The position numbers and the translations under genes were made by a program. Source: Pseudomonadota bacterium (GTDB taxonomy: Bacteria > Pseudomonadota > Gammaproteobacteria > Acidiferrobacterales > UBA6901). Taken from it: a stretch of DNA of 64,000 nucleotides. Every line of letters starts with the position of its first letter. Positions within the stretch are counted from its first letter, which is position 1. The stretch covers positions 99,272-163,271 of the forward strand of contig JAKASJ010000003.1 of the NCBI GenBank assembly GCA_021819085.1, read 5' to 3'. The notes under the pieces were generated by a model. That model was not told where the DNA came from. It made no database searches and saw only the letters and a list, made by a program, of their open reading frames with translations. Below are positions 43,892 to 47,990 of this stretch, piece by piece.

Positions 43892-45163
43892 CTAGGTCAG
43901 GCGCGCGATACCCAGGGCCTTGAGAAAGTACTTTTCGTAAAGCGGCTCAGACTGGCCTTTGCGCATCTTGCGCAGGAAATACTTCTCGAATGCGATCTTT
44001 GACCAGTGCACCCAGCGCCCCTTTTTCATCCAGCTGACATTGCGCGGGGGGATTTGCGGGATGGCCACGAACGCCACACCTTTGTCCCCCATATCCGCCA
44101 GGCATATCGCGTTCCACGTGCCAGTGGCGACAGGCTGCCGGCCTTCGATTGCGCCCTTGATGTTGTGCACGATGGCTGTGACCATGGTTTCTATCATGTA
44201 GCCTGTCTTCGGGGCACCGGTAGGCACCGGGGTCACTTCCACAGGCGGAATCGCAATGCACACGCCGGCCGAATAGATGTTCGGGTATTTTCTGCTGCGC
44301 TGATATTCATCGACCAGGACGAATCCGCGTGGGTTGGTGAGTCCTTCCACCGTCGCGACGGCGTCGACTCCCTTGAATGCAGGTAGCATCATCGAGAAAT
44401 TGAACGGAAGCTCGTGCCGCTTGGTGGCTTCGCCTCTGCCGTCGTGTTCAGCCACGAACATCTTTCCCGGTTCGACCGCGTCGACCCTGGCGTTGGTGAT
44501 CCACTTGATGTGATGCGCGCGCATCTCATCTTCCATCAGTGCCTGGGAGTTGCCCACTCCGCCCAGACCGAGATGACCAATATACGGCTCGCTGGTCACG
44601 AAGGTCATGGGTACCTTGTGCCGCAGCCGGCGCTTGCGCAGTTCGGCGTCCACGATGAATGCAAACTCGTATGCCGGACCAAAGCAGCTGGCTCCAGCCA
44701 TGGCGCCGATGACTATTGGCCCGGGTTGCTTCAGGAATTCCTCCCAGCCTTCATGGGCCATTTGCGCATGTTCGACGGTACAGATGGAGTGTGTGTATCC
44801 GCCGTGTGGGCCCGATCCGGGGACTTCATCGAAGGCAAGTTTTGGCCCTGTGGCAATGACCAGATAATCGTAAGACACCTGGCTGCCGTCCCCCAGGATG
44901 AGCCGATTCTGTGATGGCACGACCCGGGTGACAGCCTGGGCGATGAACTCGATGCCGCGCTTTTCCAGGGCAGGGCGTATGGGCATGGTAATTTCATCCG
45001 GGGTTCGCCATCCGACCGCGATCCAGGGATTCGAGGGGACGAACTGGAATTTCTCGGAAGCATTTATTACCGAAATCCGGTGCTCCGGGTCCAGGGTCTC
45101 TCGTAATTCGTAGGCCGCCGGCATGCCGCCGATGCCTGCACCCAGTATCACTACATTTGCCAT
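43892..45163 (-). CDS. sqr: sulfide:quinone oxidoreductase
   Basis: A 423-residue FAD flavoprotein that oxidises sulfide to polysulfide/sulfur and reduces quinone at the membrane. The N-terminal FAD motif is VVILGAGIGGMPAAYEL. Three redox cysteines are present: Cys128 (HSICTVEHA), Cys160 (AGASCFGPAYEFA) and Cys354 (WNAICLADMGD). The first two have the same numbering as the Acidithiobacillus ferrooxidans enzyme. The amphipathic C-terminus (FEKYFLRKMRKGQSEPLYEKYFLKALG) is the membrane anchor. A Shine-Dalgarno (AGGAGAAG) precedes ATG 45163. A sigma-54 promoter and a divergent FisR-type activator lie upstream. Confidence 0.94.
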   Translation of the reverse strand: MANVVILGAGIGGMPAAYELRETLDPEHRISVINASEKFQFVPSNPWIAVGWRTPDEITMPIRPALEKRGIEFIAQAVTRVVPSQNRLILGDGSQVSYDYLVIATGPKLAFDEVPGSGPHGGYTHSICTVEHAQMAHEGWEEFLKQPGPIVIGAMAGASCFGPAYEFAFIVDAELRKRRLRHKVPMTFVTSEPYIGHLGLGGVGNSQALMEDEMRAHHIKWITNARVDAVEPGKMFVAEHDGRGEATKRHELPFNFSMMLPAFKGVDAVATVEGLTNPRGFVLVDEYQRSRKYPNIYSAGVCIAIPPVEVTPVPTGAPKTGYMIETMVTAIVHNIKGAIEGRQPVATGTWNAICLADMGDKGVAFVAIPQIPPRNVSWMKKGRWVHWSKIAFEKYFLRKMRKGQSEPLYEKYFLKALGIARLT

Positions 45164-45234
45164 GATGCACTTCTCCTAGGTTCTGTCACCGTGACATGGT
45201 GACCTGACATGAAACAAGCCAAATTGCCCATCCA

Positions 45235-45250
45235 AGCAAATTGAGTGCCT
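45235..45250 (-). promoter_or_regulatory. sigma-54 (-24/-12) promoter of sqr
   Basis: Read on the minus strand the sequence is AGGCACTCAATTTGCT. It matches TGGCAC-N5-TTGCW except the first base, with the invariant GG and GC separated by exactly ten bases. The predicted start is near 45224, giving a leader of about 60 nt to sqr. It fits with the neighbouring sigma-54 activator gene. Confidence 0.75.
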
Positions 45251-45290
45251 AAACACGGGCATGCATCAATCCATTGAAACGGCGGTGATG

Positions 45291-45304
45291 TTGATATGGA
45301 TCAA
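45291..45304 (+). promoter_or_regulatory. perfect FNR/ANR box upstream of fisR
   Basis: TTGATATGGATCAA matches the consensus TTGAT-N4-ATCAA at all ten positions. Its centre is about 41.5 bp upstream of a predicted start near 45339, with a -10-like GACATA at 45328-45333. This is the class II activation geometry for the rightward fisR gene. Confidence 0.65.
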
Positions 45305-45313
45305 GGCAAATTC

Positions 45314-45331
45314 TGTCAGAATGGCATGACA
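45314..45331. promoter_or_regulatory. candidate upstream activating site for the sigma-54 activator
   Basis: The inverted repeat TGTCA-N8-TGACA is centred about 98 bp upstream of the predicted sqr start, within the usual range for enhancer-binding proteins. It also overlaps the predicted -10 of fisR, which would permit autorepression. A second repeat, GTCACC-N7-GGTGAC (45185-45203), lies downstream of the promoter in the sqr leader and is a less likely site. Confidence 0.4.
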
Positions 45332-45377
45332 TAAGTTCCTGGATTCCTTGATCGCTAGAAGACGGAGGCTTTTCGCA

Positions 45378-46727
45378 ATGACCGATCTATCTCCGACGTT
45401 GCAGGCGCTGATCGATGCCCAGGAAAACCCGTTCGTCCTGATAGATTCGGGATACCGGGTAGTTGCCGCCAACAGCGCATACCAGGCGGCCTACGGACTC
45501 GTGGCCACGCAGATCGTGGGTCGATATTGCTATGAGCTGTCGCATCGGCGTACTGCCCCGTGTCATCAGCATGGCGAGGACTGCCCGCATCGGCAGGTGC
45601 TCGCATCCGGCAGGGAATGTCAGGTGCTGCATACCCATTACGACCAGCAGGGATCAGCCGAGCATGTGCAGATCAGGGGATTCGCAATTCCGCATCCGGA
45701 CGGCGGCTTTCTGGTGGGGGAATCCATTTTTCGCCTTGCCACCCAGCAGGAACTGAATTGTGATGAGATGCGTCTAATCGGGCGCTCTCCGGCGTTTCTG
45801 CGCGCGATCGAGCAGCTGACACTAGCGGCTGCAAGCCACGCCAACATCCTGCTGCATGGGGAGTCTGGGGTTGGCAAGGAACTGGCCGCCCACTACATGC
45901 ACCGTCACAGTCCGCGGCGCAACGGACCGTTTCTGGCAGTCGATTGCGCCGCCATCAGCGAGAACCTTTTCGAGAGCGAGATCTTCGGTCACGAGCGTGG
46001 CGCCTTCACCGGCTGCGTGGGCCGCAAGCAGGGCCTGTTCGAGCTTGCTGATGGGGGTACTCTTTTTCTTGATGAAGTCGGCGAGCTTTCCGCTGCCATG
46101 CAGGCCAAGCTCCTGCGCGTGCTGGAAAGCGGAGAATTTCGGCGCGTCGGAGGACGCGAGGTTCTGCATGCCGACGTGCGGGTCATTGGGGCGACCAACC
46201 GCAACCTTATGACCATGGTCGAATCCGGTGGTTTCCGGGAGGATCTTTATTACCGGCTGGCCTGCATCACGATCGAGCTGCCGCCGCTGCGTGCGCGGCG
46301 CAGCGACATTCCAGCGCTGGCCGAGGCGCTTCTGGTGCGCATCAACCAGGCCAACGGCAGCCGGCTGTATCTGACCGGCGAGGCGCTCGACCGGTTGATG
46401 GGCTACGATTTCCCCGGCAATGTGCGTGAGCTACGCAACATCCTGCAGCGCGCCGCCGCGCTGAGCGCAGGTTCGGGCAGCGGTTCCATAGGCGCGGCTG
46501 CCATACGGATGGACAGTGTCCGTTCCGGCGCGACCCACCATGAAGAGAACAATGCCGGTGCCGGCGGGTCGACGGACAAGGTGCCCACCAGCATGCGCGC
46601 CATCGAGCGCGGCCACATTGCCGAGCTTCTGGAGCGTTTCAGCGGACATCGCCGTGCGGTCGCGGATGCGCTCGGCATCAGCGAGCGCACTTTGTACCGC
46701 AAGCTGCGCCGTTATGAGCTCGGCTGA
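45378..46727 (+). CDS. fisR: sigma-54-dependent activator, FisR-type
   Basis: A 449-residue enhancer-binding protein. The N-terminal PAS-like domain (1-125) has Cys51, Cys62 and Cys69 (YCYELSHRRTAPCHQHGEDC), plus Cys81. The 11- and 7-residue spacings equal those I recall for the sulfide/polysulfide-sensing cysteines of FisR (53, 64, 71). The AAA+ domain (about 133-365) has Walker A GESGVGKE at 161-168, a GAFTGC loop at 208-213 in place of GAFTGA, and GGTLFLDEVGEL. The C-terminus is a Fis-type helix-turn-helix (RRAVADALGISERTLYRKLRRY). ATG 45378 has GGAGG upstream. It diverges from sqr, its probable target. Confidence 0.87.
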   Translation: MTDLSPTLQALIDAQENPFVLIDSGYRVVAANSAYQAAYGLVATQIVGRYCYELSHRRTAPCHQHGEDCPHRQVLASGRECQVLHTHYDQQGSAEHVQIRGFAIPHPDGGFLVGESIFRLATQQELNCDEMRLIGRSPAFLRAIEQLTLAAASHANILLHGESGVGKELAAHYMHRHSPRRNGPFLAVDCAAISENLFESEIFGHERGAFTGCVGRKQGLFELADGGTLFLDEVGELSAAMQAKLLRVLESGEFRRVGGREVLHADVRVIGATNRNLMTMVESGGFREDLYYRLACITIELPPLRARRSDIPALAEALLVRINQANGSRLYLTGEALDRLMGYDFPGNVRELRNILQRAAALSAGSGSGSIGAAAIRMDSVRSGATHHEENNAGAGGSTDKVPTSMRAIERGHIAELLERFSGHRRAVADALGISERTLYRKLRRYELG

Positions 46728-47336: not shown

Positions 47337-47990
47337 TTAGACGGGACCGGGCAGGATCAGCCCCCGTTGGAAACTGAAAAACGCATTTGCAACGGCAGTC
47401 GCCTGCGGCAGCGTCAGACAGTAGCCATCCTCCGGTGCGGCGCATTGCCGGCAGAGGAAGACGAGATCGCGGCACAGGCCGTCGCTACAGGAACCGGTTT
47501 TGCGCACGGCATGTCGCCACAGGACGCGCGCGTTTTCGCACGCATCATGCTGCAGACTGCCGTTGGCCTGCACTTCGCAGCTGACCGGGTTCAGGCAGGT
47601 CACGCAGCGTGCATCGACGATGCCCGTCGAGCGCGCCAGGCGTGCCATGGCCAGCGCGTCGATGGCGCACATCGCACTCACGCGGCGATGCCCGAGCCGT
47701 ACGCTGATTCCGCGATCATCGACACTGAACGGATAGCAGCCGATACCGCTGGGACCCGGCACAATGGCGTCAAGTTCACGCAGCGATTGCATTTCTGCAG
47801 GAGACAGGAGATCGAGGGAAGGAATTTTGCCCTCGATCCAGCGGGTCAGCACGCGCGCATAGGCGCCCCTGGTCGCCATTTCCGCCCGCTCGATGCGCTG
47901 CTCTAGCGGAAACGCGGCCCGGAGCCTGTCCAGGAACCGCAGGGCATCGTGCCGGAGTGCAGCGCGCGATTGCGCTTTATCGGGCGTCAT
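47337..47990 (-). CDS. alkylmercury lyase (MerB)-like protein
   Basis: A 217-residue protein resembling organomercurial lyase. The C-x-x-D pair (Cys108, Asp111 in AMCAIDALAM) corresponds to Cys96/Asp99 of MerB, and Cys168/Cys173 in GSCSDGLCRDLVFLC may supply the second catalytic cysteine. Four more cysteines lie in DARCVTCLNPVSC and FLCRQC. The N-terminal 80 residues are helical and could be a winged-helix. No merA, merR or merT is present, so a mercury role is uncertain; a different thiol or metal substrate is possible. Confidence 0.6.
   Translation of the reverse strand: MTPDKAQSRAALRHDALRFLDRLRAAFPLEQRIERAEMATRGAYARVLTRWIEGKIPSLDLLSPAEMQSLRELDAIVPGPSGIGCYPFSVDDRGISVRLGHRRVSAMCAIDALAMARLARSTGIVDARCVTCLNPVSCEVQANGSLQHDACENARVLWRHAVRKTGSCSDGLCRDLVFLCRQCAAPEDGYCLTLPQATAVANAFFSFQRGLILPGPV

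Follow-up and report, generated by a model that had tools for sequence, protein, structure and literature searches.

A predicted FNR box between sqr and fisR, and a possible low-oxygen input to a persulfide-sensing sigma-54 activator

The closest described counterparts of the locus reported here are the FisR-sqr/pdo systems of Cupriavidus pinatubonensis (Li 2017) and Acinetobacter baumannii (Walsh 2020, PMC7315123), where, as here, the activator is a persulfide-sensing sigma-54 activator. The likeness extends to the conserved sensor cysteines and to the position of fisR, which is divergent from the sqr operon with its predicted sigma-54 promoter. Oxygen-responsive regulators (FixJ/FixK or Fnr) control NifA, another sigma-54 activator. 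Sulfide oxidisers inhabit zones in which sulfide meets oxygen, and little is known of how they integrate the two signals.

The window (the whole 64,000-nt stretch of DNA that was analysed) carries an sqr-fisR pair separated by a spacer at 45164-45377, which is best explained as a divergent regulatory region (Table 1). An initial annotation had placed three elements in this 214-bp spacer, namely a −24/−12 promoter facing sqr, an inverted repeat and an FNR box, and all three were confirmed, at positions that differ from its coordinates by no more than one base. The sqr product matches the 3sz0/3t31 structure family over its full length (E=2e-173) and keeps three cysteine positions (aligned SICT, GASCFGPAYE and NAIC), which we take to be the catalytic ones; judged by its sequence, this flavoprotein is a true sulfide:quinone reductase. 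The fisR product has matches to PAS_4, Sigma54_activat and HTH_8, and its Cys51, Cys62 and Cys69 (spacings 11 and 7) are invariant in 21 aligned orthologues; in matching this trio, the third sensor-cysteine position of the reference FisR is presumed. The distance between Cys51 and Cys62 is the same as that of the published tetrasulfide pair Cys53-Cys64 (11 residues; PMC9495516).

Table 1. Features of the sqr-fisR region (positions within the window)
Feature	Position	Strand	Remark
sqr, sulfide:quinone reductase, Acidithiobacillus ferrooxidans SQR type	43892..45163	-	structure-family match
AGGAG ribosome-binding site of sqr	45173..45177	-	sequence
TGTCA/TGACA half-site cluster TGTCACCGTGACATGGTGACCTGACA	45184..45209	.	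between sqr sigma-54 start and sqr ATG
−24/−12 sigma-54 promoter AGGCACTCAATTTGC facing sqr	45236..45250	-	implied start ~45224
Perfect FNR/ANR box TTGATATGGATCAA	45291..45304	.	predicted site; pattern search
FisR enhancer/operator, inverted repeat TGTCAGAATGGCATGACA	45314..45331	.	predicted; 63 nt above sigma-54 element
−10-like TGACAT of fisR	45327..45332	+	overlaps FisR repeat; 22 nt below FNR box; implied start ~45339
GGAGG ribosome-binding site of fisR	45364..45368	+	sequence
fisR	45378..46727	+	PAS sensor, sigma-54 AAA+ domain, Fis-type helix-turn-helix

Further observations concern the surroundings of these elements. The half-site cluster falls in the untranslated sqr leader, in a part that is missing from the nearest fisR-bearing relative. 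An Rfam search returned no RNA element. Two genes from fisR (47337-47990) lies a gene whose protein matches MerB of the alkylmercury lyase family and, weakly, SaoL.

Control of sqr by FisR and sigma-54 is likely, and is well supported by the cross-genus conservation of the repeat, the −24/−12 element and their spacing, together with a second module of the same kind elsewhere in the genome. The −24/−12 element has one mismatch to TGGCAC-N5-TTGC, with the GG-N10-GC core present, and at such stringency the window holds 5 matches against 6.5 expected, a number that is not above chance alone; support for the element comes from its conservation. Relatives of the same order carry variants of TGTCA-N8-TGACA upstream of fisR, accompanied by a sigma-54 element directed away from the gene, and the distance between the two is kept at 62-63 nt across genera. 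In a wider survey of 80 GTDB FisR loci, a sigma-54 element was found at up to one mismatch in 45 (on the divergent strand in 43, as counted from the listing) and the inverted repeat, at the same tolerance, in 37. The repeat TGTCAGAATGGCATGACA is the only perfect match to this pattern in the window, and its centre is 98 bp upstream of where the −12 element would place the sqr start, which bears out the distance of about 98 bp given by the initial annotation. A longer form of the repeat, TGNCANNNTGNCATGACA, occurs once at fisR in the genome under study (G000) and in G001, G002, G004 and G028, and is absent from G012; outside fisR, these six genomes yield a single extra match, in G002. The genome has one rpoN. 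On this basis FisR, charged by persulfide or polysulfide on Cys51, Cys62 and Cys69, would bind the repeat and loop to RNA polymerase-sigma-54 at the −24/−12 element, leading to expression of sqr, a looping step suggested by conservation and by the known mechanism of FisR.

The second module was found by searching for the repeat with a similarly spaced sigma-54 element, which recovered the sqr-facing copy and one other in this genome (C16:222-318). In the region L214:222-4221 this second copy precedes genes for a DUF3034 protein, a DsrE-like protein, a TusA-like protein and an SQR-like protein (sqr2), followed by one further gene; the DUF3034 assignment was made on the homologue in G002, and the names DsrE, TusA and DUF1641 (the further gene) are presumptive, as they were read from the sequence without a profile search. 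With its perfect sigma-54 element the module recurs in G002, G003 and G004, so that four species of this genus, whose members here are uncultured MAGs, share it; none was found in G001 at this stringency. The sqr2 cluster would accordingly be a second target of FisR and sigma-54. In G003 the module is kept at the sqr2 cluster (C88, L217), but searches of that assembly recovered no fisR and no CopD-like neighbour gene, through either loss or an assembly gap, so that G003 does not bear on the FNR box.

The sqr gene beside fisR is missing from G001 and G004 and reduced in G002 to a remnant (about residues 159-198). The outgroups G028 and G056 carry the same sqr-fisR pair, which is therefore probably ancestral. 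Loss of the adjacent sqr might seem to deprive FisR of any target; for G002 and G004 this idea was rejected, because both have the second module. Elsewhere in its genome G002 carries an SQR that is 44% identical.

The FNR box would add a different signal to this arrangement. The initial annotation had called it perfect, and TTGATATGGATCAA is the sole perfect FNR match in the window. Pattern searches of the whole genome found 10 perfect TTGAT-N4-ATCAA boxes, against about 0.8 expected from base composition and none with a reversed-pattern control. The genes near these boxes include those for a dsrA-like sulfite-reductase alpha subunit, dsrE, coxB, DUF2244-cox, cydA and acetate kinase (ackA), and sister species likewise have boxes at cydA, the two cox clusters, ackA, dsrA and dsrE. 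The dsrA-like and dsrE boxes (L003, G000:C3:1767-1780; L007, G000:C23:22292-22305; also L166, L168, L190 and L191) recur in two sister species, and dsrE has a strong −10 (TAGAAT); FNR control of the dsr sulfur-oxidation genes looks likely from these sites.

As to the protein that would read the boxes, two FNR homologues (L041 and L042), compared with solved FNR structures, have the CX2CX5C motif, a fourth cysteine and an ExxSR recognition helix. A third, DNR-like homologue (L043) has the same ExxSR helix without the cluster cysteines, and DNR/ANR-type regulators bind near-identical boxes, so that the box at fisR might be used by another protein of the Crp/FNR family, such as this cysteine-free one, with nitrogen oxides or another cue as the signal. 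This is unlikely, given that two proteins of the genome carry all four cluster ligands and that its other boxes precede cydA, cox genes and ackA, the typical oxygen set.

If the box is read by an oxygen-sensing FNR, its position fits an activator of fisR. The initial annotation had centred it at −41.5 from a plausible fisR start, which holds provided that the start is near 45339; that start is implied by the TGACAT hexamer, which is weak as a −10 (1.7 bits; background median 0.6). The 22 nt from box to hexamer, in the window and in G002, equals the distance at cydA and dsrA of the genus. Relatives show what else can stand at this place: G028 and G056, which have no FNR box, have TTGACA-N17-TGACAT, G012 has the same with a 16-nt gap, and several genomes of the f4 family have TTGACA-N18-TGTCAT, while the genome under study and G002 keep TGACAT without a −35, and G004 and G001 have neither an FNR box nor a good promoter there. 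Since TGACAT is preceded by TTGACA in the outgroups, which have no FNR box, the −35 of an older fisR promoter may have given way to the box. This reading of the promoter is ambiguous, as TGACAT and the ancestral-looking TTGACA both hold FisR half-sites. On the proposed mechanism, fisR would be read from a promoter whose −10 sits inside the FisR repeat, an FNR-type regulator at the −35 position would act as a class II activator of fisR in low oxygen (in this species and G002), and FisR bound to its own site would mask the fisR −10 and hold down its own production.

The box also lies inside the 63-nt stretch that separates the FisR repeat from the −24/−12 element, and loop-bending proteins sit between enhancer and promoter at sigma-54 promoters. 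FNR could therefore act on sqr and not on fisR, bending or blocking the loop and so helping or preventing activation by FisR. We consider this improbable: the box is intact in G002, where no more than a remnant of this sqr is left, its distance to the fisR −10 is that of other FNR promoters of the genus, and no good −10 faces sqr at the right distance. An FNR-driven sigma-70 promoter for sqr on the minus strand was rejected on this last count.

Conservation of the elements in relatives, which the initial annotation had set as a test, gives a divided answer: the repeat and the sigma-54 element are kept across genera, whereas the FNR box is kept in G002 and absent in G001 and G004, although both of the latter retain fisR and the repeat. 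Only one of the three fisR-bearing congeners therefore shares it. In G002 (TTGATCTGGATCAA) the spacing to the repeat is the same, and all ten defining bases are kept, against 60% identity of the other aligned columns (Fisher P=0.009). Among the 80 surveyed GTDB loci, 78 have no FNR box even at one mismatch, and a class-wide search for the FNR box combined with the FisR repeat returned only the window and one apparently unrelated match. A perfect FNR-type box (TTGATTGATATCAA) also occurs at one remote FisR locus (L115), 126 bp upstream of the gene, and may be of independent origin or a chance occurrence. The branching order within the genus is not resolved in a FisR protein tree, so the tree does not decide between gain and loss of the box.

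The absence of the box from two of the three congeners, together with the weak −10 of fisR, speaks for a reading in which the box is a chance match or a relic without effect in an ordinary FisR/sigma-54 divergent region. Such an explanation seems quite unlikely. Specifically, a perfect box is expected by chance in 214 bp at a rate of only about 5e-5, which makes a chance origin at fisR unlikely, the defining bases have been kept in G002 while the flanks diverged, and the spacing fits other FNR promoters.

Of the regulatory layers proposed by the initial annotation, the control of sqr by FisR and sigma-54 is thus the firmer, and FNR control of fisR is a plausible reading for this small lineage, with one close relative and the promoter geometry in its favour. 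Overall, we consider it somewhat better than an even chance that fisR has a lineage-specific FNR-dependent promoter, such that sqr and the sqr2 cluster would be fully expressed only with sulfide and low oxygen together. A fuller version, in which the FNR box replaced a −35 in one lineage of sulfur oxidisers of the order Acidiferrobacterales and so turned a sulfide switch into an AND gate for sulfide and low oxygen that governs two sqr clusters, as part of an FNR regulon that includes dsr and cytochrome bd oxidase, is tentative and would fall a little short of even. The AND-gate logic, as well as the autorepression of FisR at its own −10, is something we infer from the arrangement of the sites. 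If true, (i) an oxygen sensor would be wired directly onto a persulfide-sensing activator, (ii) sulfide oxidation would be tied to the FNR set shared with the dsr genes and the bd oxidase and (iii) close relatives with and without the box would be natural variants that make the effect testable.

Set beside the described systems, the locus departs from the FisR systems of C. pinatubonensis and A. baumannii in the FNR box of its fisR promoter region, no FNR site at fisR being described there in the literature found. The initial annotation knew of no account of FNR control of a FisR-type gene, and none was found in the open-access literature, where absence is not proof. With class II promoters of FNR/ANR the locus shares the perfect TTGAT-N4-ATCAA and the −10-like hexamer 22 nt below it, but the gene it would control encodes a sulfide-sensing sigma-54 activator, whose own site overlaps the −10. 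The control of NifA by FixJ/FixK or Fnr follows the same principle, an oxygen regulator set over a sigma-54 activator, but serves nitrogen fixation, with an unrelated sensor domain and unrelated target genes. The parts are known; their combination is new.
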